Shown here piece after piece: positions 9,139 to 46,133 of a stretch of 64,000 nt of DNA. The notes under the pieces are model-generated. The model was not told where the DNA came from. It saw only the letters and a list, made by a program, of their open reading frames with translations, and did no database searches. Positions within the stretch are counted from its first letter, which is position 1, and every line of letters begins with the position of its first letter. The DNA lies in contig NZ_HE997184.1 of assembly GCF_000312445.1 (NCBI RefSeq), forward strand, positions 133,346 to 197,345, written 5' to 3'. The position numbers and the translations under genes are program-made. Origin of the DNA: Phocaeicola abscessus CCUG 55929. GTDB lineage: Bacteria > Bacteroidota > Bacteroidia > Bacteroidales > Bacteroidaceae.

Positions 9139-9237
9139 CGATACGGATTTTCTGCGTGCCTCGACAACGACAACCGGTTGAAAAAGAAACAGGGACGGAC
9201 TGATACTTCGTCACGGCCGAAGAAAGCCATCTCGACG

Positions 9238-9310
<73 letters not shown>

Positions 9311-9319
9311 AATAATCCG

Positions 9320-9403
9320 TGAAGGAAATGAGACTCGAACTCACACGACAAAACTGTCACTACCCCCTCAAAGTAGCGCGTCTACCAATTCCGCCATTCC
9401 TCC
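9320..9403 (-). tRNA. tRNA-Leu(GAG)
   Basis: Class II tRNA with a long variable arm. The minus strand begins GGAGGAATGGCGGAATTGG. The anticodon stem CTACT/GGTAG encloses TTGAGGG, giving anticodon GAG. The acceptor pairs GGAGGAA with TTCCTTC with one G-U. CCA is not encoded. Confidence 0.93.
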
Positions 9404-9412
9404 GATATTATG

Positions 9413-9485
<73 letters not shown>

Positions 9486-9494
9486 ACGATAATG

Positions 9495-9575
9495 TGCCCA
9501 GAACAGGACTCGAACCTGCATGCCTTGCGACACACGCACCTGAAACGTGCGCGTCTACCATTCCGCCACCTGGGC
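9495..9575 (-). tRNA. tRNA-Leu(CAG)
   Basis: Class II tRNA. The minus strand begins GCCCAGGTGGCGGAATGG. The anticodon stem CACGT/GCGTG closes a loop TTCAGGT, giving anticodon CAG. A different pairing register would read TTC, but the chosen register matches the neighbouring tRNA-Leu and the long variable arm. Confidence 0.9.
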
Positions 9576-9580
9576 TCCTG

Positions 9581-9653
<73 letters not shown>

Positions 9654-32769: not shown

Positions 32770-33636
32770 ATGAAAAGGATTTTTGCTCTGTTAGGCGTAT
32801 CGATCATCGTCTGGACCTGTTCTTGCAGCCGGACGCCAGAAGGCGTACAGCCCTTCGATATGCAGAAGATTTCTCGATCATTAAAGGATAAACGTTCAGG
32901 AATGGCGAAAAGCGAAATCTTCGGGAGGCAGGTGCTGCAGCTGGCACCCTCGGACGGGAACGACGGTATTGTGATTTGGAGGAAAGGAGACCGACCGGAT
33001 TGGACCGACGCCCGTTACCTGACAGCCGAAGTATACGATAAAGCGGAGCACAGCGGCGTGATCCATTTGGAGTTTTACAAGACCGATACCGTTTCCGAAA
33101 AAGTGGTCGTACAAGGAGGACAAAGGGCGGGAACGGCAACCGAATCACCGTGGATTTCGTGCATGATCGGCGTCTTGCCGCAACTGAAAACCCGAATCGT
33201 CTTTCCGCTCTCGCATCTGGATGCGCAACAAATCTTTCTGAATCGGTTCCCTCGTCAACTCAAAGCTACGGTAACGGGCAATCGGTTAGCTCCCGCCGAC
33301 ATCTCCAAAGTCATCCTGAGATTCGGCCCGTACGACGACACATCTTATCAGACGAGCTACGAAATAGCGTCCATTTCACTTACCGATGAACTGCCGGCAG
33401 CCTACGAACCCGGCAATCCGATGATCGATCCGCTAGGACAGCGCACGGATAAAGCATGGCCGGGCAAGCTGAAGCATGAAGAGGATATGATCCGACAGCA
33501 CCAGCATGCGGCCGACAGAGTGAAAGGGGCGGCCTACCCTGCCTCGTGGAGCAAGTACGGAGGATGGAAAGCGAAAAGGTTCGCGGCTACCGGGTTCTTC
33601 CGGATAAAAGTAGTACCTGTGAATGTAATCGGCTGA
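32770..33636 (+). pseudogene. 5' part of an interrupted glycoside hydrolase gene
   Basis: The start is the Met of MKRIFALLGVSII, giving a lipoprotein-type signal (VWTCSCSR); the frame open from 32584 has no signal. The 278 codons up to 33603 encode a beta-sandwich-like N-terminal region (FYKTDTVSEKVVVQGG, DISKVILRFGPYDDTSY) and end in SKYGGWKAKRFAATGFFR. The next codons (to 33636) come from the inserted element and add a short foreign tail. The missing catalytic part resumes at 44834 in the same frame. Any product would lack a catalytic domain. Confidence 0.88.
33597..33602. other. Left attachment core (attL), CTTCCG
   Basis: CTTCCG is the only clear sequence shared by the two junctions. Left flank: chromosomal GGGTT before it, element GATAAAAG after it. 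Joining it with the copy at 44828 restores the hydrolase frame. Confidence 0.75.
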
Positions 33637-33643
33637 TTACTAA

Positions 33644-33667
33644 TAGAAAACAGAATATATGATATAA
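33644..33667. repeat. Left subterminal inverted repeat of the element
   Basis: TAGAAAACAGAATATATGAT matches the reverse complement of 44797-44819 (TAGAAAGCAGAATATGGCAT) at most positions. These are probably arm-type recombinase binding sites, about 42 bases inside the left core and 8 bases inside the right core. Confidence 0.65.
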
Positions 33668-33908
33668 TAAGGTGAACGATTAAGAAACGAGCGAGTTTCT
33701 TTTCCTTTCTTTATTCTGCAATGCTTCAAAGAACACGTTAATTCTATGTTGCAAAGATAATGATTTCTTTATGAAAAGCAGTAGGAATTAGAGAAAAAGT
33801 GCTTGTTGTTCCATTCTTTTTACTTTTCAAATAATTACAAAAGGATAGATATACAAAATAAAGCTATAAATATATCGTAAAACAAGCGGTTTGATGAAAT
33901 ATAATTGT

Positions 33909-33916
33909 TATCTTTG
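33909..33916 (+). promoter_or_regulatory. -7 box for the XRE regulator gene
   Basis: TATCTTTG, 32 bases before the ATG at 33949. Confidence 0.55.
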
Positions 33917-33948
33917 CATTTGATAATTGTAAATCAAAGACTTGGAAG

Positions 33949-34143
33949 ATGAAACTGAACAGAATAAAACTTGTGCTTGTGGAAAAAGAAATTTCCCAAA
34001 CGCAATTGGCAAAGGAACTTGGCAAGAGTTTCAGTACAATCAATGCGTATTGCAGCAATCGCAAACAACCCTCTTTAGACTTGCTGAATAAAATAGCGGA
34101 ATATCTATCCGTGAATATCAAGGACTTAATTGTCGATAAATAA
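33949..34143 (+). CDS. XRE family helix-turn-helix regulator (64 aa)
   Basis: A 64-residue single-domain DNA-binding protein: KEISQTQLAKELGKSFSTIN is the Cro/C1-type HTH, and it ends in LSVNIKDLIVDK. Such minimal regulators in Bacteroidota often precede type II restriction-modification genes (controller proteins). Here only a 26-codon frame beginning MEDK follows before the histidine kinase, so it may be an orphan from a lost system, or it may regulate the element cargo. Confidence 0.85.
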   Translation: MKLNRIKLVLVEKEISQTQLAKELGKSFSTINAYCSNRKQPSLDLLNKIAEYLSVNIKDLIVDK

Positions 34144-34152
34144 GAAGTAGGT

Positions 34153-34233
34153 ATGGAAGATAAAATATTAAAGTCTGTTTCCTGCGAGGACGTCAGGGTG
34201 AAATTCCAACTCTCATGTATCTTATGGGTATGA
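34153..34233 (+). pseudogene. 26-codon remnant following the XRE gene (possible truncated gene)
   Basis: ATG at 34153, nine bases after the XRE stop, encoding MEDKILKSVSCEDVR plus 11 residues before TGA at 34233. Tight spacing and a gene-like start suggest the beginning of a co-transcribed gene cut off early. No family can be named. Confidence 0.25.
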
Positions 34234-34346
34234 ATCAAGTATGTTTCCTTTAAAGGTCTAAAAACGAAGTATGTCAGTACCTTCCTGCACTTATTTAATC
34301 ATAAAATTGAGTGTTTTGACAATTCGTTATAAATTTAGAGCAAAAA

Positions 34347-35363
34347 ATGAAAACAAAACATCAGATTAAACAATGGTTGCTAATCACTATCATAACATTT
34401 TTTCTTTATGATGTGATATGGCTTGCTGGAGATTATGATGATTTTTCACGGAGTGTTTTAAACCATTCAAGTGAAATTATTGAAGATTTTGTTTATTGCT
34501 CATTATTCTCCTTGACAAGCATTTTTATATGTAATCAGCTTATTAAACTGTCTGAGAAACGTCAGCATATAACAAATAAGCAATTAACAGGAATTGCATG
34601 GTGCGTGATTTTTATAAATATAATTCTTGCTTTTATTTGTGAGTTTATTTATGAGGGCGTAATTTGTAGCAATGTCCCTGATAATGATTTTTGGGGAAAC
34701 TCTTATATCTTTGCCTTAATTGCATCTCTCATAGGATTGATCAACGTGAATCATTACTATACAAAGATCGTTGAAAGTCACTATAATGAATATATATCGT
34801 TTAAGAAGAAATCTCTCAAAGCTCAGTTAGATCCACATTTTCTATTCAACAGCCTAAGTGTCTTGGCTGAGTTGACAAGAGAAAACGGGGCTAAGGCTGA
34901 AGAATTTACGCTTCGTCTTGCAAATGTGTACAGACATGTATTAAAAACAATTGACATGGATATAGTTCCGTTGTCAGAAGCAATGCTTTTTGCAAAGAAT
35001 TATACCGGGATATTGCATGTGCGGTTCGGAGAGTCAGTTGTATTCCGTATTGCTGATTTCCCTATAAATAGTAATGAGTATATGTTGCCAATGAGCATAC
35101 AAGTCCTTGTGGAAAATGCGATTAAACATAATTTGGCTTCCCGTGAAAGCCCATTGATTATATGTATAGATCGCAAGGATAATAAAATTTTAGTTTCAAA
35201 CAATATTCAAACAAACAAAGACAATGTGACGAAACCTTCCTTTTCCTTAGGTATGGGATTGCAAAATTTGCAACAAAGATACATCATCGAGACAGGGACA
35301 GGTATTGATATTAGGGAGAGCAACACAGAATTTACAGTATACGTTCCAATTATTGAAAAATGA
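34347..35363 (+). CDS. LytS-type membrane histidine kinase
   Basis: A 338-residue sensor kinase. Four hydrophobic segments (about residues 10-28, 48-66, 83-103, 118-136) form the membrane domain with little outside it. The His_kinase module begins KAQLDPHFLFNSL, with the phosphorylated His at 164. The ATP-binding part has the N box VLVENAIKHNL and the glycine box GMGLQNLQQRY. Kinases of this class pair with LytTR regulators. The stop overlaps the regulator start (ATGA). The gene is AT-rich like the rest of the cargo. Confidence 0.93.
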   Translation: MKTKHQIKQWLLITIITFFLYDVIWLAGDYDDFSRSVLNHSSEIIEDFVYCSLFSLTSIFICNQLIKLSEKRQHITNKQLTGIAWCVIFINIILAFICEFIYEGVICSNVPDNDFWGNSYIFALIASLIGLINVNHYYTKIVESHYNEYISFKKKSLKAQLDPHFLFNSLSVLAELTRENGAKAEEFTLRLANVYRHVLKTIDMDIVPLSEAMLFAKNYTGILHVRFGESVVFRIADFPINSNEYMLPMSIQVLVENAIKHNLASRESPLIICIDRKDNKILVSNNIQTNKDNVTKPSFSLGMGLQNLQQRYIIETGTGIDIRESNTEFTVYVPIIEK

Positions 35364-36109
35364 ACAAGATTGTTATTATAGAAGATGAGACATTAAGTGC
35401 CAATCGCCTCATTAGATTGATAAAGGATTACGATGATTCCATTACTATCCTTGGTCCATTCCAAACAACTGATGAGGTCAAGAACTTTCTTACAAGTGAC
35501 CACGATTATGATTTAATCATATCAGACATAAGGCTTGGTGCACATACTGTATTTGAAGCCTTTGAGTTGAACATGCCAACCTCCTTCGTCATTTTTACAA
35601 CTGCATATGATGAATATGCAATGAATGCTATCAAATCAAATGGCATAGATTATTTGCTTAAACCTGTGAATAGTAAAGATCTGTTCAACTCTTTGGATAA
35701 AATCAATATGCTATTACATAAAGCTACTCCACCTACCGCACTGTCTGCAGTGGCACGGGATATGCAAATATGGCGCTCACGCTTTTTGGTTACCAAGGGT
35801 GACGAGTTAGTCCCATTGAAAGCTGACGAAATCAGTTGCATTTATAGTGGAGAACGTCAAGTAGTGGCTTATACACATGATGGTGAAGTCTATGTCATGA
35901 ACGACGGTCTGTCAGATTTAGAAACAACCCTCAATCCTGACATATTTTTTCGTATTAATCGACAATATATCGCCAACATCAATTACTTAGAAAAGATTTC
36001 ATTCTTTTTCAGCTCTAAACTTCATGTTAGGATCAAGGGATGCAGCGATAATAATATAATAATCAGCAAAACCAGAGCCAGCAAATTCAAGCAATGGCTT
36101 AACAAATAA
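35360..36109 (+). CDS. LytTR family response regulator
   Basis: A 249-residue regulator. The receiver domain (1-120) has the acidic pair Glu8-Asp9, the phospho-acceptor Asp56 (LIISDIRLG) and the conserved Lys in YLLKPVN. The LytTR DNA-binding domain (about 145-249) spans FLVTKGDELVPLKADEISCI to the FFRINRQYIANINYLEKI core. LytTR proteins bind paired direct repeats about 21 bp apart; exactly such a pair (36525 and 36546) precedes the 539-residue lipoprotein gene. Translationally coupled to the kinase. Confidence 0.94.
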   Translation: MNKIVIIEDETLSANRLIRLIKDYDDSITILGPFQTTDEVKNFLTSDHDYDLIISDIRLGAHTVFEAFELNMPTSFVIFTTAYDEYAMNAIKSNGIDYLLKPVNSKDLFNSLDKINMLLHKATPPTALSAVARDMQIWRSRFLVTKGDELVPLKADEISCIYSGERQVVAYTHDGEVYVMNDGLSDLETTLNPDIFFRINRQYIANINYLEKISFFFSSKLHVRIKGCSDNNIIISKTRASKFKQWLNK

Positions 36110-36120
36110 ACTCATGCCTT

Positions 36121-36471
36121 ATGGGAAAAGTAAAGAAAACTTCTTTGTGTTTTTATGCTTTTGGTTCATTGATAGTTTTACTATTAATGTCATCATGCAA
36201 CACTTTTAAAGAAATAGTAAAGGAGGAGGTCGTGGAATCAATCACTGACCCCAAAACAGGTACCCCTGTTTTCACGCGAGAGTATGACACGAAACCTTAT
36301 CAAATTAATGTTGGAGAAATCATAAGGGCCAGGAAAGAACAAAAGAAGAAAAAGAAAAGGGAATTAATTGAGAATTACGAGATAGAACAGACCGATAGTG
36401 CGCAACAAATAAAAGCGGATTCAACAAGCAAGTGCAAAATTACGGAATCTGCTCAAAAAATCGATCCATAG
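36121..36471 (+). CDS. Small lipoprotein of the LytTR cargo
   Basis: A 116-residue protein with a signal segment (about residues 10-26) and lipobox LMSSCN. The mature part is very hydrophilic, with a Lys/Arg/Glu-rich stretch (ARKEQKKKKKRELIENYEI). No family was recognised. It starts 11 bases after the response regulator, so it belongs to the same operon and may be a periplasmic partner of the kinase; that is inference. Confidence 0.75.
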   Translation: MGKVKKTSLCFYAFGSLIVLLLMSSCNTFKEIVKEEVVESITDPKTGTPVFTREYDTKPYQINVGEIIRARKEQKKKKKRELIENYEIEQTDSAQQIKADSTSKCKITESAQKIDP

Positions 36472-36524
36472 TAGCAAAACTTGCCAATTATTAGAAAGTA
36501 GATAAAAAGTTTGAACGCGATTTC

Positions 36525-36555
36525 TTCCGTTTCACCGTCATTTATTTCCGTTTCA
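36525..36555 (+). promoter_or_regulatory. Candidate LytTR operator: two TTCCGTTTCA direct repeats
   Basis: TTCCGTTTCA occurs at 36525-36534 and again at 36546-36555, exactly 21 bases apart, ending 34 bases before the -7 box at 36590. LytTR regulators such as AgrA bind about 9-bp direct repeats with a 12-13-bp spacer and a TnCGTT-like core. The spacing, core and position fit an activator site; binding is not shown. Confidence 0.6.
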
Positions 36556-36589
36556 TGACATTTCGACTTGCAGAATACTATATATAATT

Positions 36590-36597
36590 TACTTTTG
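36590..36597 (+). promoter_or_regulatory. -7 box for the 539-aa lipoprotein gene
   Basis: TACTTTTG, 35 bases before the ATG at 36633 and just downstream of the candidate LytTR repeats. Confidence 0.55.
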
Positions 36598-36632
36598 GGA
36601 CACTAATCGTTTAATCCTAAATAAAACTCAAC

Positions 36633-38252
36633 ATGAAAAAATTAGTATTTCTTATGTTGACTGCAAGTCTCATTACAGCTTGTTCGTCAGAAGACCTTAG
36701 TCCAGGTGCTGAAACAGCACAGACCACTAACCAATCTGCGACTTCGTCAGTTTCAGTTTCGAACGAGGGTTACTTGGTGTTTCCCACAGTCCAGAGTCTA
36801 CAAAATTTCGTGGAGCAATATTCGGAAGACGGCGCAGGAGCCTCTGCGTGTCAAAAATTTCTCCCTAACACAAGAGCAATTGGTGGGGCTCATTTTGAAT
36901 CTGTAGCAGATTTGAGTGAACGTCTTGCTAATGGTCGCCATATAACACGCGCGAACTCTGAAGCTAGTATTGATCAAAAAGTCAACAGCATATCCAATGA
37001 GGACCTAAAAGGACTGGATGAGTTGGAAGAGATGACCCAAGACGAATATAATGTTATGAAGGCAGAGAATCTGCTCTTTGATGATATTATGACACACATG
37101 GTTGACACAACTCTTCGTGTATGCGTGGAAGGTAGACTTTATAAAATCACAGATCAGGGGACATTCTCCATTGATGTCAAGAAAGAGAAGCTGCTTGATG
37201 AATCTATCAGAACATTTAATCCTGAACTTAAGCTTAAAGTAAATCCAGGAGCTTCTGTCGCTCTTGATGAGAATGTTACTTTCACAAGAACATTCTCTGA
37301 TAAAAGTATTCAATATTCTGAATTTGAGGCTGTAGACGAACCAATAACAGCAACTCTAACTCGAGCAGCATCTAATGACACATATACAGAGAATGCTTTT
37401 CACGTGGGTTATAATACGAACTCATATTTATGGAAGAATCATAGCGTGGTACAAAAGTTTTTCGATTGGCTCAGGGGCAAGGATGTGTCTCGCGAAAACA
37501 ACTTCTCTAAAAAACATCGTGTTCAGATGAAAGTGTTTGATGTGAACTATGGATTTTATGCTAGTGCTGGTATAAAAGTAAATATGCAGAAAAGGAAAAA
37601 GTTCTTAGGCATCCCATATTGGAAAGGTGAAAAAGCTTCCAAGATCGTAATTGGATTTAATGGTTTAGATGGAGTTATGAAATACAACAATCCAAGAAAC
37701 TATTCCACCATTAACCCTACAATGAATACGAATTGGAATACTTTCACGGGTGCAATAAATAATATTCAGTCAAAATTCTTCTATGGTAACTATCATAAAT
37801 TGAAGTTCATAAAAGATTGGACAGACGATATAATATGCCTGATTCCCGAAATTAAGATTGGAGATAAAGATTGGCGTGAGAAGGTAGGCAACAAACTTTA
37901 TGAAGCACCAGCGAAGGCCGTCTATTCTCAATTAAAATCATTGGAGAATAAGTATATCTATTCTCCAGTAAAGAAAAGAATTACACCAACAGATCCTATG
38001 ATGGCTTACTTAGTATGGGGTAATACCAATATTGAGTTTAATAAGGAACATCCGTATATTACAGGAGTGAAAGAATACACTAATTGTAAATCAAAATCGG
38101 TAATCTTTGATAGATCATTCGGATTTTCGTTTACTAATGCTGGAGGCATTACAGGTTTCCTTCCTTCCGAGTTTGACATTAATAAACTGGATGTGTTTGG
38201 TGCCGCTTATTATGACAATCAATGGCGTGGAGTACGTTTCTATAAATATTAA
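36633..38252 (+). CDS. Large lipoprotein of unknown function (539 aa), likely LytTR target
   Basis: Lipoprotein signal MKKLVFLMLTASLITACSS (Cys17), then an Asp/Ser/Thr-rich linker. Residues about 45-65 (GYLVFPTVQSLQNFVEQY) resemble the short helical segment that opens many Bacteroidales surface lipoproteins. A central region holds an acidic helical part and beta-like stretches; the C-terminal half contains MKVFDVNYGFYASAGIKVNM and a basic segment KRKKFLGIPYWKGEKASK. No known domain was recognised. Low GC and position in the cargo mark it as acquired. It starts 5 bases upstream of the barrel gene's operon junction, so the two are probably co-expressed. Confidence 0.7.
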   Translation: MKKLVFLMLTASLITACSSEDLSPGAETAQTTNQSATSSVSVSNEGYLVFPTVQSLQNFVEQYSEDGAGASACQKFLPNTRAIGGAHFESVADLSERLANGRHITRANSEASIDQKVNSISNEDLKGLDELEEMTQDEYNVMKAENLLFDDIMTHMVDTTLRVCVEGRLYKITDQGTFSIDVKKEKLLDESIRTFNPELKLKVNPGASVALDENVTFTRTFSDKSIQYSEFEAVDEPITATLTRAASNDTYTENAFHVGYNTNSYLWKNHSVVQKFFDWLRGKDVSRENNFSKKHRVQMKVFDVNYGFYASAGIKVNMQKRKKFLGIPYWKGEKASKIVIGFNGLDGVMKYNNPRNYSTINPTMNTNWNTFTGAINNIQSKFFYGNYHKLKFIKDWTDDIICLIPEIKIGDKDWREKVGNKLYEAPAKAVYSQLKSLENKYIYSPVKKRITPTDPMMAYLVWGNTNIEFNKEHPYITGVKEYTNCKSKSVIFDRSFGFSFTNAGGITGFLPSEFDINKLDVFGAAYYDNQWRGVRFYKY

Positions 38253-38257
38253 GAATT

Positions 38258-38815
38258 ATGTTAAGATGTATTGTCTTTTCAATCATGATAATGGTATCTT
38301 TTGCGTGTAACGCGCAAGAGATACCTGTCAAATGTCTTGAAACTGAATTTGGCTTTGGTATTACTTTGCCTCTTGACCAGTATCATGGTGGGGATAAATT
38401 AGTTGGACCATCATTAGCAGTGAATCTTCGATACAACATCAAGAACACACCTTGGGATTGTGGCTTTCTACTGCAGACGGATGGAGCACGGCGTGATTTC
38501 TGGCATGATAGGAATAGCGATAAATGGCAGACTAACAGAACTATGATTTTGGCCGCTACGGGTGGTTACAATTTTCGACAGGGGCAAAAAGTAAATCCTT
38601 TCATCAATGTCGCCTTAGGTGTTGGTTTTAATCAAACCGTGGGAGATGAGTTCATGGATATAAATGCAACATCCCCTGTAATAATGCCTAAAATTGGTGT
38701 GGAATTATGGCATATAATTAGAGTTAACACACATGTCATGGTAACACGTAAAGGATTTAACACCTATGGCTTAACCCTTGGATTAGTCTTGGGTGGACGA
38801 CCTAATAAGAACTAA
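38258..38815 (+). CDS. Small outer-membrane beta-barrel-like protein (185 aa)
   Basis: Signal peptide to about residue 19 (MVSFACNAQE). The mature protein has alternating hydrophobic patterns with Gly and aromatic residues (FGFGITLPLDQY, ILAATGGYNFRQ, NVALGVGFNQ, GLTLGLVLGG) typical of an eight-stranded barrel. It begins 5 bases after the 539-residue lipoprotein gene. Function unknown; it may anchor or export the lipoprotein. Confidence 0.65.
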   Translation: MLRCIVFSIMIMVSFACNAQEIPVKCLETEFGFGITLPLDQYHGGDKLVGPSLAVNLRYNIKNTPWDCGFLLQTDGARRDFWHDRNSDKWQTNRTMILAATGGYNFRQGQKVNPFINVALGVGFNQTVGDEFMDINATSPVIMPKIGVELWHIIRVNTHVMVTRKGFNTYGLTLGLVLGGRPNKN

Positions 38816-38918
38816 ATGTAAGAACTGTTGTTATAAAGATAGAGGGTAAGTAAAAACAGCAATACTACTTATCCTCTATCCATCTTTTATCTGTATTAAA
38901 CAGAAAATAAATTGTAAC

Positions 38919-38970
38919 TTAACGTGAGTTCGACAAAATCAGATGTTTTAATCCGTCGAACTCACGTTAA
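38919..38970. repeat. 16-bp perfect inverted repeat between cargo and mobilization module
   Basis: TTAACGTGAGTTCGAC at 38919-38934 and its exact reverse complement at 38955-38970, with a 20-base spacer. It lies between the convergent barrel gene and MobC-like gene. It could be a bidirectional terminator or the trace of a small inserted element. Confidence 0.8.
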
Positions 38971-38978
38971 ATTATGAT

Positions 38979-39398
38979 TTACCCAACAATCATGGAATAC
39001 TCCTCTGTTAGTTTTATCGCTTGCACTTGCAGTTTAATGATTGCTTCAGAATAAGTTTCGATTTTGCGGAGCATTCTTTGGGCGGTAGCTGTTGAGTGGT
39101 AGCAGTTAAGTGTCTTGACTGCTTCATTATAGAGAACACCAATCTTATAAATTTGGGATATTATGTTAGTGAGTTCACGCATGTATTTCTCATTAGAAGA
39201 ATTCTCTGTGATAACCTTGAAAGATTCTCCAAGTAATCTTGCCCTTAGATAATCGCTCTTTGTTTTTGCTCCAGACTTTCGATATAATTCGATGACTTTT
39301 TGCTGGTCTTTGGGATTAGGTATTCTGATATGCCATCTGTTCCATTTGGGGCAGGTGGTGCATTTGCCATCAGGCTTGTTTGTTTTCTTTCTTTTCAT
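38979..39398 (-). CDS. MobC-like mobilization accessory protein
   Basis: A 139-residue basic protein. The N-terminus has Lys/Arg and a CTTCPKW segment; then RIPNPKDQQKVIELYRKSGAKTKSDYLRARLLG resembles the DNA-binding part of Bacteroides BfmC/MobC-type relaxosome proteins, followed by a helical bundle. In related elements the relaxase gene follows directly. Here the next 160 bases are non-coding and then the cargo begins in the opposite direction, so the relaxase appears to be missing. Confidence 0.55.
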   Translation of the reverse strand: MKRKKTNKPDGKCTTCPKWNRWHIRIPNPKDQQKVIELYRKSGAKTKSDYLRARLLGESFKVITENSSNEKYMRELTNIISQIYKIGVLYNEAVKTLNCYHSTATAQRMLRKIETYSEAIIKLQVQAIKLTEEYSMIVG

Positions 39399-39449
39399 TG
39401 TTTCTATGTTTTCTAATCACGACTTTGGAGTGATTTAATCCCCTTTCGG

Positions 39450-39504
39450 GGCAAGGGTCTTTGTGGGACAAATGGCAATTTGTGGTACAAAGACACACCT
39501 TGCC
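39450..39504. repeat. Nested inverted repeat, oriT-like
   Basis: Three nested arms are visible: GGCAAGG/CCTTGCC outside, GTCTTTGT/ACAAAGAC in the middle and ACAAAT/ATTTGT inside around GGCA. It lies just upstream of the MobC-like gene, where transfer origins of mobilizable elements are usually found. Confidence 0.6.
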
Positions 39505-39538
39505 AATATCAAGAAAGAGGTTGATAAGCCCCAGCTGT

Positions 39539-39594
39539 GTTACTGCATTCTGTGAATGCGGTAACTCGGCAGGGGTTTGCATTCGAGGAATGCA
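39539..39594. repeat. Two adjacent GCATTC/GAATGC hairpins, oriT-like
   Basis: First hairpin 39539-39565: GTTACTGCATTC, loop TGT, GAATGCGGTAAC (one T-G pair). Second 39578-39594: TGCATTC, loop GAG, GAATGCA. Both share the GCATTC core and lie between the DUF3408 and MobC-like genes. Confidence 0.65.
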
Positions 39595-39599
39595 GTGGT

Positions 39600-40235
39600 T
39601 CAGAGTTTCCGCCATCTTTCCACATCCTCCTTGTATTGGTCGAGGTGTTCCCGAAGCACTTGTTCCACGTATCCTGAAACGCTCGCTCCCTGCTCACCGA
39701 TTTTCCGCACCACGAAGTCCAATCTTCGTTGGGTTTCCTCTGACACATACACAGCTTTGCGATGGCTGTTGCGAAAGGGGCGGAGGTATTTCCCTTGAAA
39801 CCGGGCTAAGTCCTCTCTGTCCTTGCCTTTCGTCTTGCTCTTACCCACTTGACGAGAAACTTCTTCCGTGCCCGTTTTAATTTTCTCTGAGCTGATTATT
39901 TTTTCCTCCGAAGCATCTTCATCATCTGAAGGGTCAAACATCGCAGTGCGCCGTGAAGGAATCCCGGTAGTTCCGTCCTCTGCCATCCGTTTCAGTGCTT
40001 CTTCCAATATTCTTTCTCGCTTCTCTTCCGCTGTCAATGGCTCTTCGGACAAAGCCTCTTCTTCATCATCTTCATCCATTTTTATAGGCTCAAATCTATT
40101 CTTCTCCTCTTCATAATCGGAGGGCTGGTCAAAATCGGGCAACTTTTCGGGCTTGCGGAGCTTAACGCCATAATTTCCCATATCTCTAATGGCTTGTTCC
40201 AAGCGCTGTTTCCTTTGTTCATCTATTCTTGCCAT
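39600..40235 (-). CDS. DUF3408 family protein of integrative elements
   Basis: A 211-residue protein with a charged, acidic, low-complexity N-terminal two-thirds and a C-terminal ribbon-helix-helix-like segment (KAVYVSEETQRRLDFVVRKIGEQGASVSGYVEQVLREHL). DUF3408 proteins are carried by Bacteroidota conjugative and mobilizable elements and probably bind DNA in transfer or partition. It overlaps the upstream HTH gene by 13 bases. Confidence 0.85.
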   Translation of the reverse strand: MARIDEQRKQRLEQAIRDMGNYGVKLRKPEKLPDFDQPSDYEEEKNRFEPIKMDEDDEEEALSEEPLTAEEKRERILEEALKRMAEDGTTGIPSRRTAMFDPSDDEDASEEKIISSEKIKTGTEEVSRQVGKSKTKGKDREDLARFQGKYLRPFRNSHRKAVYVSEETQRRLDFVVRKIGEQGASVSGYVEQVLREHLDQYKEDVERWRKL

Positions 40236-40537
40236 AATTTCTTGGGTATCGGGTTATAGTGTTTTTCAAGCATGGCTTGTATGTCGCTCTGCTTGTAGAG
40301 TATCTTCCCTCCGATTTTGTAGAAAGGAAGCGTTCCTGAGTTTCTGTACTCTTGGAGCGTACGTGTGCTGAGCTGTAATTGGCTGCAAACCTCTTCACCA
40401 GTGAGGTAAACCTCTCCACCCAACATCGGACGGGCAGTGGCGCAATAACGCTCCAGTTTCTTTAAGATGCCCTCCATCAGTTGTGCAAACATCTGCATCT
40501 GAGGGTCTTGCTGTGTAATGATTTCGTTCTCTGCCAT
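40223..40537 (-). CDS. HTH_17 excisionase-like protein
   Basis: A 104-residue protein whose C-terminal half is a winged HTH of the excisionase/MerR type: YLTGEEVCSQLQLSTRTLQEYRNSGTLPFYKIGGKILYKQSDI. Such proteins act as recombination directionality factors or regulators in Bacteroidota elements. It follows a paralogue by 3 bases. Confidence 0.85.
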   Translation of the reverse strand: MAENEIITQQDPQMQMFAQLMEGILKKLERYCATARPMLGGEVYLTGEEVCSQLQLSTRTLQEYRNSGTLPFYKIGGKILYKQSDIQAMLEKHYNPIPKKLWQE

Positions 40538-40540
40538 TGT

Positions 40541-40810
40541 TTATTCATTTTTTGAGTTCAGTATCTCCATGATGTCACTCTCCTTGTAATAGCACTTATG
40601 TCCAATCATTGAATAAGGAATTTTACCCGTATCTCTGTATGATTGTAGGGTACGCTTGCTGATGCCCAAACGCTTGCACACGGCTTCGTTGTCGAGCCAT
40701 TGCTCGGTCTCAGGAGGATTACCGATGAGTTTCTCCACACGATGGATAAAGTCTGCAAATTCGGAGCGATGTCGCTCCCACGCTTTGCGGTCGATGATAA
40801 TGAGTTTCAT
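40541..40810 (-). CDS. HTH_17 excisionase-like protein, second copy
   Basis: An 89-residue protein with the same fold as its neighbour (WLDNEAVCKRLGISKRTLQSYRDTGKIPYSMIGHKCYYKESDIMEIL). First gene of the HTH-HTH-DUF3408 operon, behind a promoter box at 40891. Paired HTH_17 genes are typical of this class of element. Confidence 0.85.
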   Translation of the reverse strand: MKLIIIDRKAWERHRSEFADFIHRVEKLIGNPPETEQWLDNEAVCKRLGISKRTLQSYRDTGKIPYSMIGHKCYYKESDIMEILNSKNE

Positions 40811-40890
40811 TGCCTTAATTTTGTTTTGATTACTTTATTGTTACTCAGCAAACAAACTGTTATGCAGTCCATTGCCGTACTTCTCGGGTG

Positions 40891-40898
40891 CAAAAGTA
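40891..40898 (-). promoter_or_regulatory. -7 box for the HTH operon
   Basis: The minus strand reads TACTTTTG, 80 bases upstream of the first HTH gene. Confidence 0.55.
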
Positions 40899-41235
40899 AA
40901 CCCTCGGAAGCACCGCTGCAAGAAATGAGGATAAGCAGGGAAATAGAAAGAAAGCAATAGAAAAACAAAGGAAATCCGTCTGTGTTATTGCGGTAATGAG
41001 ATGAGGTGCCGGTTCGTTCCTTTTATTATTTTGTTGTTTTATCGATAATTCGATAGTTCGACAAATCGAGATGTCGAAGTGTCGATAGATAGTTTTATCG
41101 ATAGATTATTTTGACGATATATAGTTTTGACAACAGATAGTCATGACAACAAATTGTACAAACAATAGATTGTCCGTATTATCGTCAGTCCTATCTGTTG
41201 TTAGTTGTTACGCCTTGCGTCCAAAGAGCCTGAGT

Positions 41236-41445
41236 ATGCCGTATTCTTGTCGTGCCTATACTCTCTACGGCAGCCCAGCCCTGCAAGGTTGGGAGAGATG
41301 AATACGACCGCATGGATATAGAAAATGGCAATACCACCTTGAAACAGAAAAATCCTACGGTGGAGATTCTTCTCTCCATCCGCAGGACTCGACCTTGCAG
41401 GGCAGACAGGCTGCCGTTGTACCTTTGCACGATAAGAAACGGCAT
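41236..41445. repeat. Large imperfect inverted repeat
   Basis: The arm 41236-41289 matches the reverse complement of 41392-41445. Shared blocks in order are ATGCCGT, TTCTT, TCGTGC, ACGGCAGCC and GCCCTGCAAGGT. The spacer is about 100 bases. A plus-strand TACCTTTG lies in the right arm (41420). Confidence 0.75.
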
Positions 41446-41469
41446 CAGGAACTTTGCGTGCGCCTTTGC

Positions 41470-41955
41470 CTACAACGCCTTCGGGCTTGCCTCCTCCGTC
41501 TGTTTGACCGTTGGCAGGTTGTTGCTCTCGATGAGCAGCACTATCGTGCCTGTCAGTTCGGTGTAAAGACGGTCGTATTGTCCGCTTGCGGCAAATGCGT
41601 CCGTCAGTTCATACTTGGCGAATGTGGCTTGAACAGCCTTGTCCGCCAACAATAAAAGCGAAAGCCTCTCGGGGAGCGGTGTAGGAAGTTCCCTCTCAAA
41701 CTCGTCCTCCAAGACAGAAACAAGGGTATCGTACTTTGAGAAATGCAGTCCACTGAAAAGCACTTCACTTGCTATTCTTTCTGCTTCTAAATGATTAAAA
41801 CCTTGCGCCACGGCATCGCAGTAGGCTGTCAGTGCCATGTCGGCTCTTGCCGTGATAAGCTCCTTGTCTCCCAATCGCTCGGGGTGATGTTCACTCATAT
41901 AGCTTTCCAACTTCAATCGGAAGTAGGAAATTTCCTTTTTGTTCTTCTGTTTCAT
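41470..41955 (-). CDS. DUF1896 family protein
   Basis: A 161-residue helical protein starting at MKQKNKKEISYFRLKLESYM; the longer frame to 41997 adds only a polar tail. The pattern SEHHPERLGDKELITARADMALTAYCDAVAQG is typical of DUF1896 proteins found beside integrases of Bacteroidota elements. Function unknown. It ends next to the large inverted repeat. Confidence 0.8.
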   Translation of the reverse strand: MKQKNKKEISYFRLKLESYMSEHHPERLGDKELITARADMALTAYCDAVAQGFNHLEAERIASEVLFSGLHFSKYDTLVSVLEDEFERELPTPLPERLSLLLLADKAVQATFAKYELTDAFAASGQYDRLYTELTGTIVLLIESNNLPTVKQTEEASPKAL

Positions 41956-42009
41956 TGTTCTTCTTGTTAAAAAGTTGGACTTCTTTTTTTGAATCATTCA
42001 TTACGGCTG

Positions 42010-43293
42010 TTACATCCCAATTATGGGACTTGACTTTTTCGGTGTTCTTGACGGACACAGCCGTAAGGCTTTACGCAGTACCCTTGTATGCTCACTACCC
42101 ATCAGGGGTTGCATTTCCTTGGCAATCTTGCTCTTGGTCACCCGTGCATAAATCTCGGTCGTGGAGATAAAGCGATGCCCCAGCATCTTGCTCACCGTTT
42201 CTATCGGAAGTCCGTTCTCCAGACAGATGGTCGTGGCAAAGGTGTGCCGTGCGGTGTGCGAGGTCGCTTGGGTATGCGGTGGCAGTCCTGCCTTAATACA
42301 TATCTCCTGAATAGTTCTATTGAAATTACTGTTGCTGGGAAACTCTCGAAAGAAAAGCCCCTCCCTTCGTCCGGGGCTCACTATGGCGAGTATTTTCTCG
42401 GCAATGGGCAGTAACGGGACAATACTTCTGTTCTGTGTCTTTGTGCGACAGAGCGATATGTACCTACGCCCATCCCCGAATGTATAAACATCGTCCATTC
42501 GGAGTTTCTTTAAGTCTGAGAATGCCAGCCCCGTGAAACAGCCCAAGAGGAAAATAAGTCTGCAATGGTTGTCCACTGAGCGGTGCGGACGGTAAGCCAA
42601 GAGTTTTTGCAGGTCGTCCGCCGTAAGTGCATTGCGCTCGTAGGTAGGCGTTTCTATGTCTATGAGTTCAAAAGGGTCTTCACGAACGTATCGCTCCTGC
42701 AATGCCTTGCGAATGACCTGATGCAAGTGGCGTAGGCGGTTGCCGACACTGCTTTCCTTGTTTCCCAAGTCCCGAAGCATGAAAAGGCGATAGTCCTCAA
42801 GCAAAGTCTTGTCCACCTCTGTGGGCATACAGTCTGCCCTGTCCCTTACTTGCAGGAAATGAACAAAACTCTTGTAGCTGTCCTTAAAAGCCCTGACGGT
42901 TGCCTTGCTTAAGGTTCTGCCCTGCAATTCCTCCTTGTATTCACAAACGGATTGATATAGCTCCGCAAGTGTTGGCATAGGGCGACTTTGCTGCATATAA
43001 CGCTCCTTGAGGTATTCCGCCGTGATATAGTTTTCTTCCCTTAGTGTACGTTCATAGAGTGAATGCAAGCACTCTTCGATTGAGTTCAGTTGCAGATTGA
43101 TGCCGCTTGAATTACCTGCTGTCGCCTTGATGCGCCCTTTTCGGGCAAGCCACTCATCGGGGGAAGTTTGCAACTGCGTGGAAAACGATGAGGACGTACC
43201 ATTGCAGGTGATACGGCAACGGATTACGCATACTCCGTGTTCATTGGTCTTGCTTCTGTCCGTGTAGAATAGTATGGAAAATGTACTTTTCAT
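42010..43293 (-). CDS. Tyrosine recombinase (integrase) A
   Basis: A 427-residue site-specific recombinase with an N-terminal arm-binding region, a SAM-like core-binding domain (about 105-200) and the catalytic domain. Catalytic residues visible: HTARHTFA (His/Arg), LGH (His) and the nucleophile Tyr in STTEIYARV. The usual first Arg is replaced (CFTGLAFSDLKKL), as in IntDOT-type enzymes, where this position is Ser. It ends 54 bases upstream of DUF1896 and lies 12 bases after the second recombinase. Confidence 0.93.
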   Translation of the reverse strand: MKSTFSILFYTDRSKTNEHGVCVIRCRITCNGTSSSFSTQLQTSPDEWLARKGRIKATAGNSSGINLQLNSIEECLHSLYERTLREENYITAEYLKERYMQQSRPMPTLAELYQSVCEYKEELQGRTLSKATVRAFKDSYKSFVHFLQVRDRADCMPTEVDKTLLEDYRLFMLRDLGNKESSVGNRLRHLHQVIRKALQERYVREDPFELIDIETPTYERNALTADDLQKLLAYRPHRSVDNHCRLIFLLGCFTGLAFSDLKKLRMDDVYTFGDGRRYISLCRTKTQNRSIVPLLPIAEKILAIVSPGRREGLFFREFPSNSNFNRTIQEICIKAGLPPHTQATSHTARHTFATTICLENGLPIETVSKMLGHRFISTTEIYARVTKSKIAKEMQPLMGSEHTRVLRKALRLCPSRTPKKSSPIIGM

Positions 43294-43305
43294 TGTGCTG
43301 CGGTT

Positions 43306-44559
43306 TTAGTTGGTCAGTTGATAATGTGCGAGTTGTGGAAGTATTTTCTCTATGTCCAGAAAGACACGCTCGGGAGAAGTCTCCGCATACACTTGCGTGG
43401 TTTTGATTTGACTGTGTCCGAGCATTTTGGAAACGCTCTCAATGGACACGCCCTTCGACAGTGTCATCTGCGATGCGAAGGTATGCCGTGCCATGTGATA
43501 GGTCAGCGTTTTCTGAATACCGCAAAGCCGTGCTATCTTTTTGAGGTGTATGTTTACCGTGTCGCATCCGGGTATGGGCAGCAGATACCCCTTGGGCGGT
43601 TCGTGTCGGAAAGCCCTCGTGTGAATGCCCCGATAACGCTTGATAATGGCAGCGGCTTCGGGAAGTAGGGGGATGTGGCACACGTTGCCCGTCTTTATTC
43701 TCGGCTTGCGTATCCAAGTCATTCCCGCTTCGTGAAAGATGTGCTGCTCCGTCAAGTGATACACGTCGGTATAGGAAAGTCCCGTCAGGCAGGAGAAAAG
43801 GAACATATCCCTCGACACTTTTTCATAGCCTTGCAATTTATCTTCTCCCAAGGCTGCGATACGACTTACCTCCTCCCTCGTGATGTAACGTGGAGTACCC
43901 ACTTCCCAACGAATGGAATGGTTGATGAAGGGATAGGTGTCAATGATATGCCGTTTATGCAGGTCTTTGAGCAAGGAAGCCAGCATGGAGAGATAACCAG
44001 CCGAAGTGTTGAGCTTGAAGCCCTTTTCTTTGGCGAAGTAGTCTTCCAAGTCCTTGACAAGGGCGGCATCGGCTTTCTGTACGGGAATATCCTCCACATG
44101 GTAGCGATACCTGACGAAGTTTGCCAGATGCTTGCGAAAGAGCAACAGGCATTTTAGTCTGCGTTCGCTGCGGTCTATGCCCACACGCTCACGGAAGCGG
44201 TCGATATACTCGTCCGTATGATAAAGCAGTCCCTGCGCCTCGCTGTTTAGCCCGAACACCAATTCCCGTACTCGCTCTGCCGTGATGGGAGCATCGGATT
44301 TACCCGAAAGAGACTCATAAACCTTGTGTATGCTCACTTGTAGGCGGTCAAGTTCCTTGTTTACCGATACGGCTTCGGCACTCTTGCCCAGCAGTCGGTT
44401 CTTGCGACTATCCCACAAACGAGGAGTACACGAGCATTTGCAACTGAACTGTACCATAGAGCGTCCTGCGCTGATGCGTCCCATGATGGGACTTTTTCCG
44501 TTTTTGTCCTGCGTACCTCTCTTGAGGTAGAAAAGCAGCTTGAATTTTTCTTTTTCCAT
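43306..44559 (-). CDS. Tyrosine recombinase (integrase) B
   Basis: A 417-residue paralogue with the same domain order. HMARHTFA, LGH and KTTQVYAET give the catalytic His, Arg and Tyr; the first Arg position is Ser (CLTGLSYTDVYHL). It is the gene nearest the right end of the element. Tandem recombinases are frequent in Bacteroidota elements, and both may be needed for integration or excision. Confidence 0.93.
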   Translation of the reverse strand: MEKEKFKLLFYLKRGTQDKNGKSPIMGRISAGRSMVQFSCKCSCTPRLWDSRKNRLLGKSAEAVSVNKELDRLQVSIHKVYESLSGKSDAPITAERVRELVFGLNSEAQGLLYHTDEYIDRFRERVGIDRSERRLKCLLLFRKHLANFVRYRYHVEDIPVQKADAALVKDLEDYFAKEKGFKLNTSAGYLSMLASLLKDLHKRHIIDTYPFINHSIRWEVGTPRYITREEVSRIAALGEDKLQGYEKVSRDMFLFSCLTGLSYTDVYHLTEQHIFHEAGMTWIRKPRIKTGNVCHIPLLPEAAAIIKRYRGIHTRAFRHEPPKGYLLPIPGCDTVNIHLKKIARLCGIQKTLTYHMARHTFASQMTLSKGVSIESVSKMLGHSQIKTTQVYAETSPERVFLDIEKILPQLAHYQLTN

Positions 44560-44796
44560 TGTTTTTTACTTGCAAAATTACACTTCTTTGAGGAACTTTG
44601 AGCGATGCAAAACATTGATAATGAAAGAGAAAACACCGTTTTAGTTACCACTTTCAGCCGTCCTTTTCCTTTCATCGTTTGTCGAACGATTTGGTAACTG
44701 AACTCCCTCCTTTTCGCTCCCTTTTCTGCCTGTTTTCTATGATGCAACCCTAAGAAGAAACAAGCAATATCCGCTGTATTTCAGTCAGATATGAAT

Positions 44797-44819
44797 TTTA
44801 TGCCATATTCTGCTTTCTA
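44797..44819. repeat. Right subterminal inverted repeat of the element
   Basis: Partner of 33644-33667; its reverse complement starts TAGAAAGCAGAATATGGCAT. Confidence 0.65.
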
Positions 44820-44827
44820 CTCCCATA

Positions 44828-44833
44828 CTTCCG
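44828..44833. other. Right attachment core (attR), CTTCCG
   Basis: Element sequence ends TCCCATA before it; chromosomal AACACAATACG follows. Same six bases as the left core at 33597. Confidence 0.75.
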
Positions 44834-46133
44834 AACACAATACGACGGTTCACGGTGGTGGCTGGTCGATCCCGAAGGTTACGCCTTTCTGAGCGCCGGC
44901 ATCGATTGCATATCCGCCTCGGCAAGCGGGCCGGTCATCGGGATCGAAGACTTGTTCGAATGGTTGCCCGACAGCGATCCAGCCTTCCGGGAAGCCGTAT
45001 CGGAAAGGCACGACCTCCCCGCCGTCGACTTTTACGTAGCGAATCTGATCCGTATCTTCGGAAAAGACTGGAAAGCACGGTGGTCGGCGTTTACCGTCGA
45101 CCTTCTGAAGAGTCTCCGCTTCAACACGGTGGGGAACTGGTCGGATCTCTCCTTCGCCCAGCATAGCGGCATTCCGTACGTGCTTCCCCTGAGAGATTTC
45201 CCGTCGACCGCAACCGTTGTCTATCGCGATTTTCCCGATGTATTCTCGGACGAATACAGACGGAATGCGGAAATCTTCGCACAACAATTGAACGACTACA
45301 AAGACGATCCTTATCTGATCGGCTATTTCCTCCGGAACGAACCCCAATGGGCTTTCGGTTATCATAACCTCGCCTATGAAATGTTCGCCACCCCCGGAGC
45401 TTCCGAGACGAAAAACACCTTCATCGACTGGCTGAAAACGAGGTACGGGGGCAACATCCATGCCCTCAACGAAACCTGGGGATTGAATCTGAAGGACTTC
45501 GAGGCCTTGAAAGCGGAAACTTTCAAGAATTACCCGTCGGAAACGGCAAAGACCGACTTCAACGATTTTTCCTCCGTCATGGTCAAGAAATACGTCGACG
45601 TCCCATGCGATGAAGTCGCGAAAGTCGACAAGCATCACCTGAACTTGGGCATGCGTTACGCCTGGATCAGTTCGGATTTGCTTTATAAAGCCGGCGAACG
45701 ATTCGACGTCTTCTCGATCAACGGATACGGAATGTTTCCTCCCCCAACGGCCGAGATAGCAAAGAAAAGCGGGAAACCGGTCATGATCGGCGAATTCCAT
45801 CACGGAGCCGTCGATCGCGCCTTGCCTGCCACCGGCATCATTGGTGTATTGTCTCAGGAAGATCGGGCGGCCGCTTATCGGAATTACATGGAAGAGGGGT
45901 TTTCACGACCGGAGTTGGTAGGAATGCACTACTTCCAGTGGGTAGATCAGCCTTACACCGGCCGGTTCGACGGAGAGAACTACAACATCGGAGTCGTCAA
46001 CACAGCCGACATCCCTTACGAAGAACTGATGAAAGGGATGAAGCAAACCAACGGACGTATCTACGAAGTGGCTACCGGCAAAGCCCAGCCGTATCGCAAA
46101 GATATTCCTCCGACTCCGGCCATACATTATTAA
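44834..46133 (+). pseudogene. 3' part of the interrupted glycoside hydrolase gene (catalytic domain)
   Basis: Joined after CTTCCG, the frame reads on as TQYDGSRWWLVDPEGYAFLSAG and runs 432 codons to the stop. This is the TIM-barrel part of a GH42/GH50-like (beta-galactosidase or agarase type) enzyme. YLIGYFLRNEPQWAF has the expected acid/base Glu in an NEP motif, and KPVMIGEFHHGA has the probable nucleophile Glu. An internal ATG at 44952 could restart translation, but that product would lack the signal peptide and the first part of the barrel. The exact GH family is not certain. Confidence 0.88.

Follow-up and report, generated by a model that had tools for sequence, protein, structure and literature searches.

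The stretch of DNA analysed here, 64,000 nucleotides (nt) of the Phocaeicola abscessus CCUG 55929 contig NZ_HE997184.1 (hereafter the window), contains an 11,240-bp integrative element whose cargo combines a sensor kinase, a LytTR-type response regulator and a small lipoprotein with a 539-residue lipoprotein and a candidate small outer-membrane barrel. On balance we favour the view that the element carries a self-contained inducible surface module. Our confidence differs from part to part: the large lipoprotein and the barrel very probably work together, and the regulator probably controls this output pair, whereas we have little confidence in any specific task for the pair, the most likely default reading being that it interacts at the surface with other cells or with ligands. 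All cargo genes, from the helix-turn-helix (HTH) gene through to that of the 185-residue protein, lie on the forward strand, and the GC content of the cargo is 33-38% as against about 50% in most of the flanking kilobases. The placement of five genes in an AT-rich cargo, as put forward in an earlier note on this DNA, is thus borne out by the open reading frames and the base composition. The cargo and its predicted control signals are arranged as follows.

33949..34143, + strand: Xre-type HTH protein of 64 residues, a probable regulator of the element or the cargo (PF01381, 1.6e-13)
34347..35363, + strand: sensor histidine kinase of 338 residues with a LytS-type kinase domain (PF06580, 6e-18)
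35360..36109, + strand: response regulator of 249 residues with a LytTR DNA-binding domain (PF00072, 5e-9; PF04397, 1e-18)
36121..36471, + strand: small lipoprotein of 116 residues, third gene of the regulatory run (lipobox MSSC)
36525..36555, + strand: two direct repeats TTCCGTTTCA with an 11-nt spacer, the predicted LytTR binding site (pattern scans and published site layout)
36567..36597, + strand: predicted promoter CTTG-N19-TACTTTTG of the output pair (likeness to the Bacteroidetes consensus)
36633..38252, + strand: lipoprotein of 539 residues, the output protein, possibly surface-exposed (lipobox ITAC, then SSED; 12-member alignment)
38258..38815, + strand: candidate small outer-membrane barrel of 185 residues, the lipoprotein's partner (homology to the partner proteins of loci L020 and L099)

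The five genes from kinase to barrel stand together in all four element copies found, that of the window included. A scan of a species collection of 84,980 genomes, sensitive to close relatives only, returned three loci. In BLASTN of the fetched loci the Hoylesella marshii copy is colinear with the element along 11,240 bp at 99.95% identity, and the element is matched in two blocks of 99.94 and 99.98% in Prevotella multiformis and in three blocks of 91, 92 and 96% in Prevotella pallens; the P. abscessus genome itself holds one full copy. The earlier note's claim that an element carries these genes about as a set therefore stands, and the search it had proposed for the same five-gene set in other elements finds it in the P. 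multiformis, H. marshii and P. pallens copies. Relative to P. pallens, the ratio of non-synonymous to synonymous substitution (dN/dS, by NG86 and without error bars) is well below 1 for each gene, with 0.32 for the kinase, 0.11 for the regulator, 0.18 for the small lipoprotein, 0.26 for the large lipoprotein and 0.13 for the barrel. In the same comparison (window 34347-38815 versus L005 6720-11180) dS itself ranges from 0.16 to 0.70 across neighbouring cargo genes, which is a roughly three- to fourfold spread and suggests recombination between element copies. The HTH gene is identical in nucleotide sequence (100%) to its P. pallens copy, and the small lipoprotein is 80% identical over residues 1-108.

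The link between the regulatory genes and the output pair is drawn in part from the intergenic region that separates them. Here two perfect 10-nt copies of TTCCGTTTCA (36525-36534 and 36546-36555) stand just upstream of the Bacteroidetes-type promoter predicted for the last two genes, and the two repeats 21 bp apart which the earlier note had described at this place are confirmed, the doubled pattern having its sole match in the window here at up to three mismatches (chance mean 0.01). When the intergenic region was shuffled 5000 times with its dinucleotides preserved, an exact 10-nt repeat at a spacing of 20-24 arose in only 6 cases. Exact 10-nt repeats of any sequence at this spacing occur three times in the 64-kb window, and of these the TTCCGTTTCA pair alone lies in the cargo; single TTCCGTTTCA 10-mers, on the other hand, are near background (12 with at most one mismatch versus 6.75 expected). 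A LytTR site is described as a pair of repeats, direct or inverse, each 9-11 nt long and 11-13 nt apart (PMC4847170), and the TTCCGTTTCA pair agrees with this layout, and in layout only, at the predicted target promoter. By our estimate the centre of the pair lies about 62 bp upstream of the expected transcription start, close to the -60 at which the proximal repeats of AgrA are reported to be centred (PMC4227749). The predicted promoter is close to the sigma-ABfr consensus, TTTG / TAnnTTTG (PMC7366714); a scan of the sigma-70 type returned background only (24 found versus 21.7 expected).

The site is largely conserved with the element. The P. pallens copy keeps the 21-bp spacing and an unaltered second repeat, and its first repeat carries two changes. 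Whole-genome scans at up to three mismatches, with the reversed pattern as control, find the perfect site once in P. abscessus (two other matches, both at three mismatches; control 1), once in P. multiformis (four others at three mismatches; control 1) and once in H. marshii (one other match; control 1), whereas the sole match in P. pallens is the element's own site with two mismatches (control 4). Since the site occurs once per carrier genome, the regulator may have a single dedicated target. Upstream of the six lipoprotein homologues tested (L016-L020 and L033) there is no exact 10-nt repeat at a spacing of 19-25.

The two-component system itself is, judged by domain content and similarity, of the ordinary LytTR kind and without a close relative. 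The kinase has three predicted membrane helices at its N-terminus and retains the H, N and G motifs (DPHF, VENAIKHN and LGMGL); the regulator, whose start overlaps the kinase stop, retains ISDIRLG, and its earlier assignment as a LytTR regulator is upheld by both of its domains (Response_reg 5e-9, LytTR 1e-18). The LytS subgroup is marked by a five-transmembrane (5TM) LytS sensor domain. The earlier description of the kinase as LytS-type holds for its PF06580 domain and motifs but not for the sensor, as Pfam at E up to 0.1 reports PF06580 alone, and the protein is best called LytS-type by its kinase domain only. Among 324 genomes its best-scoring other match is 31% identical over nearly the full length; at E 1e-30, 71 of these genomes, its own included, hold a match, mostly to the kinase domain only, and 22 plasmid records match at less than 60% each. 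The third gene of the run does encode a lipoprotein, as had been noted, but one that is only mildly basic (predicted isoelectric points of 8.9 and 7.9 for the precursor and the mature form, respectively). It gives a ParB-type match below cut-off in the Pfam and NCBIfam scans, and it may tune the kinase from the envelope.

Loci of six kinase relatives were read. In the best-scoring one (L075, 5378-8281) the kinase is followed by a LytTR partner and then, about 0.5 kb downstream, by a small barrel of the outer-membrane protein type (PF13505); this locus contains no relative of the lipoprotein and, within 7219-7690, no exact 9-nt repeat at a spacing of 19-24. In chosen stretches tested at L077, an exact 9-nt repeat at that spacing does occur near the kinase. 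Control of small barrels by LytTR pairs may be more frequent than this one element shows, and we regard these two loci as leads only.

The output pair has relatives of its own, and these place the module in a wider frame. The family of the 539-residue lipoprotein is sparse: it was found in 2 of 100 relatives, in 5 of 393 genomes of the order when a single sequence was the query and in 10 of the 393 when a profile was used, in 6 of 345 genomes of the class and in 6 of 369 of the Hoylesella family, counts which take in the query genome (H. marshii in the case of the Hoylesella family) as well as marginal matches. Ten loci with full-length homologues were read (L016, L017, L018, L019, L020, L033, L074, L098, L099 and L100); left out of the locus counts were the marginal profile matches of short coverage in G115, G199, G222, G387, G456, G528, G585, G684, the second place of G782, and G962, while G944 was read and proved to be a remnant. 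At all ten loci the lipoprotein gene has next to it, on the same strand and 1-260 bp off, a gene for a protein of 167-209 residues with a signal-like N-terminus. At L100 this small partner lies upstream of the lipoprotein gene rather than downstream, and L018, L020 and L098 contain additional small genes of the partner type. At a further locus (L101, 6778-8116) all that is left of the lipoprotein is a C-terminal piece of 30 residues (53% identical), immediately followed by two genes for small barrel-like proteins. A 12-member alignment of the lipoprotein has S90, G176 and W531 in all rows and V165, Y170, N305, W330, G341 and S495 in nearly all.

Three of the ten partners are recognised by Pfam as barrels (L033, PF13568, 4e-16; L098, PF13505, 4e-8; L099, PF13505, 2e-12); for the others the label is based on size, signal and a terminal aromatic residue, the last being present in eight of the ten overall. 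The 185-residue protein of the window, which also has a signal-like N-terminus, is 43-44% identical to the L020 partner and homologous to that of L099, so that the small barrel of the earlier note is retained as a barrel by homology and not by model. Structure prediction and remote-homology search for the 539- and 185-residue proteins, both suggested at the time, yielded nothing usable: neither profile had a significant match among PDB sequences, the lipoprotein profile giving a best E of 0.32 with 7 and with 12 rows and the barrel profile 0.018 with 9 rows (a designed transmembrane barrel) and no match with 4. The lipoprotein family has no match in PHROGs, plasmid and phage collections contain no relative of it at E 0.01, and viral contigs returned nothing with the lipoprotein, its 7-row alignment or the kinase. 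Neither Pfam nor NCBIfam assigns the 116-, 539- and 185-residue proteins to a family above cut-off, matches of the 539-residue protein to lipoprotein signals being below it.

TBLASTN with six window proteins (E 1e-4) found neither kinase nor regulator at the ten distant loci, with only 182 bp of upstream sequence at L020. As no LytTR pair was found there, the kinase pair appears to be an add-on of this mobile lineage. The lipoprotein-barrel pair, in turn, is by its distribution best seen as a wider, older and thinly scattered two-gene unit, and the five-gene set as one mobile, switch-equipped version of it rather than a widespread system. Of the undescribed five-gene system envisaged in the earlier note there remain three proteins without a curated family, whereas the set of five gives way to a pair that occurs at ten distant places where no LytTR genes were found. 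What emerges is a lipoprotein family as yet without a name, regularly accompanied by a small partner protein and scattered across the Bacteroidales, with at least one genome outside the order.

We suggest the following course of events for the window's version. The membrane kinase would sense a signal and phosphorylate the LytTR regulator, as expected from their families; the regulator would bind the two TTCCGTTTCA repeats and activate the promoter of the sigma-ABfr type, as the layout and conservation of the site imply; and the lipoprotein and its partner barrel would be made and placed in the outer membrane, probably with the lipoprotein on the outer face. Phosphorelay, repeat binding, activation and surface location are all read from sequence here. 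The regulator genes and the small lipoprotein would be the addition which turned an older pair into a portable switch.

Several observations weigh against this proposal. The kinase pair adjoins the output pair in this element lineage only, and the link between regulator and pair therefore rests on four copies. One of these, that of H. marshii, may be inactive because its lipoprotein gene (L006, 9001-10617) has an in-frame stop at residue 206 in a draft genome; its kinase, regulator, small lipoprotein and barrel give full-length matches. As to the site, the window holds two further exact 10-nt repeats at such spacing elsewhere, one-mismatch pairs of low complexity occur upstream of three of the six homologues that served as controls, and the -33 box, CTTG, is one base off TTTG. 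As to the barrel, seven in ten partners fall below the Pfam barrel cut-off, the 185-residue protein of the window is likewise not recognised by Pfam as a barrel and ends without the terminal aromatic residue, and AlphaFold models from two-row alignments (window and P. pallens) are unusable, with pLDDT values of 45 for the barrel and 26 for the lipoprotein.

Might kinase and output pair simply be chance neighbours, with the kinase pair serving other targets and something else binding the repeats? That no LytTR pair was found at the ten distant loci, with 182 bp upstream available at L020, would fit this, but the repeat layout, the single perfect site in each of three carrier genomes, the conserved spacing and the joint conservation in all copies speak against it, and we hold it to be very unlikely. 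That the pair serves in uptake, the lipoprotein capturing a nutrient or ligand, the barrel passing the substrate and the kinase sensing it, has in its favour that a lipoprotein with a barrel is the usual uptake layout of Bacteroidetes and that the cargo slot of a related element (L034, see below) holds, by eye, cargo of the TonB-receptor type. The partner proteins with their 167-209 residues are far smaller than SusC/TonB receptors, however, the window pair has no TonB-receptor or SusD match, and few barrels this small are known to serve as uptake channels. The small barrel thus makes uptake less likely, and we regard it as improbable.

Competition between bacteria is a further candidate for the task of the pair: the lipoprotein would be an antibacterial surface protein, the barrel the producer's resistant receptor variant or an immunity factor, and the kinase pair the switch. 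There are precedents in BSAP genes that lie beside genes for replacement, non-targeted surface molecules, one of them a porin-like outer-membrane protein (PMC4999547), and in a CDCL operon on a mobile genetic element, which encodes a surface lipoprotein for immunity and, downstream, a porin (PMC11169675). The sporadic distribution of the family would suit such a role, as would the seemingly independent divergence of lipoprotein and barrel (47 versus 22% identity between window and L016, 25 versus 44% between window and L020) and the loss of the lipoprotein with retention of the barrel at L101 and in H. marshii. Yet divergence is not always uncoupled (56 versus 44% between L016 and L017), the low identities between barrels come from globally aligning proteins that are short and divergent, and the H. 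marshii stop lies in the draft sequence mentioned above. Moreover, MACPF or PF01289 was matched in none of the 12 family members scanned, and PADLOC gave no match for the five window proteins. We consider a role in competition unlikely; decidedly doubtful is the fuller version, a new family of non-MACPF competition lipoproteins, each with a fast-changing protective small barrel, here placed under a LytTR switch on a transferable element. If it were true, weapon, protection and trigger would arrive together. A MACPF or CDCL toxin and a defence system, which had also been entertained, were dropped on the same two results, the domain not being found and PADLOC giving no match.

Our preferred reading, an inducible surface module acquired as cargo, is set in an element whose remaining features are these.

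33594..44833, no strand: whole integrative element, 11,240 bp, ends accurate to about 5 bp (colinear BLASTN matches in three other genomes)
38908..38981, no strand: 27-bp inverted repeat between the barrel gene and the mobilisation gene (in P. multiformis a recombinase-HsdS cassette is inserted here)
38979..39398, - strand: MobC-like mobilisation accessory protein (PF19514, 1.4e-40)
39600..40235, - strand: DUF3408 protein (PF11888, 4e-26)
40223..40537, - strand: excisionase-family HTH protein (TIGR01764, 8e-8)
40541..40810, - strand: second excisionase-like HTH protein (TIGR01764, 9e-4, below cut-off)
41470..41997, - strand: DUF1896 protein (PF08989, 1.5e-57)
42010..43293, - strand: tyrosine recombinase (PF00589, 5e-19)
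43306..44559, - strand: second tyrosine recombinase, in tandem with the first (PF00589, 6e-18)

With a tyrosine recombinase, an excisionase and both an occupied and an empty site, this has the marks of an integrative mobilisable element, and integrative elements of its kind are known from Bacteroidales. The scan of the element's proteins, which took in most but not all small open reading frames, recognised no relaxase, and the MobC-like and DUF3408 proteins are the only ones of this sort; transfer would require help in trans. The element splits a host gene into pieces at window positions 32770-33636 and 44754-46133, which align separately to one open frame of 739 codons in a genome of the same genus (L038; 57% identity over 166-1002 and 74% over 988-2292), and TTCCG is present at both junctions. 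An assembly contaminant was dropped as an explanation, as the element interrupts a gene that is continuous in the same-genus genome. Among 60 genomes searched, the interrupted-gene flank is present in one besides its own. The split gene resembles, by eye, that of a carbohydrate-active enzyme.

Two related dual-recombinase elements with DUF1896 and DUF3408 have the backbone and a left-end piece in common with the window element and differ from it in the cargo between left end and DUF3408, their open reading frames at the MobC position being judged by eye only. That of Prevotella sp. oral taxon 299 (L034, 388-17325) is 83-88% identical at the DNA level between its DUF3408 side and its right end and has 161 bp of the left end at 85% identity; its slot contains reading frames which by eye are TonB-receptor- and lipoprotein-like. 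That of P. nigrescens F0103 (L035, 5905-16976) is 86-90% identical from DUF3408 to DUF1896, with two annotated integrases beyond, and has 95 bp near the left end at 91%; its slot is annotated with an outer-membrane barrel protein (PF14905), a peptidase-domain ABC transporter and a hypothetical protein. Since other cargo occupies the same slot, the five genes are one cargo among several, and the slot of this element family carries different cargo in different Prevotella.

In P. multiformis (L004, 11351-13635) the inverted repeat next to MobC (window 38968-38982) has taken up a 2.3-kb cassette that encodes a tyrosine recombinase together with HsdS, the specificity protein of a type I restriction system, the flanks overlapping by 15 bp; it is mobile, nested in the element and possibly shuffling. 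Rfam gave no match over 33500-45000. Elsewhere in the window, at 9237-9653, there are five consecutive tRNA genes, three for tRNA-Gly(gcc) alternating with two for tRNA-Leu.

Among the matches listed, the literature searched, which covers few subscription journals, contains no paper on the module. The LytS/LytTR systems YpdAB, BtsSR and AgrCA share with it a PF06580 kinase, a regulator with receiver and LytTR domains, and 10-nt direct repeats with an 11-nt spacer before the target promoter; different from these, the window system has three predicted N-terminal helices with no matched sensor domain, and it is predicted to act on a lipoprotein-barrel pair that is borne by a mobile element. As in the Bacteroides BSAP loci (PMC4999547), the gene of a surface-acting protein would lie beside that of a variable surface molecule, which for BSAP-1 is a porin-like protein. 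The window family differs in that no MACPF domain was found in it and in that it has partners of 167-209 residues and, in the window, its own two-component switch. The CDCL operon of B. fragilis (PMC11169675) is similar in its mobile element, lipoproteins and downstream porin, whereas the window module is without the PF01289 motif and has a single large lipoprotein and a LytTR pair of its own. The LytTR two-component system and the Bacteroidales integrative element are thus of kinds already known. What is new is the lipoprotein family, so far nameless, with its small partner, and the existence of a mobile copy that brings along a switch and a predicted site of its own. In this copy 5 kb that moves between genera holds the sensor, the predicted binding site and the output, which makes this signal-to-surface circuit directly testable.

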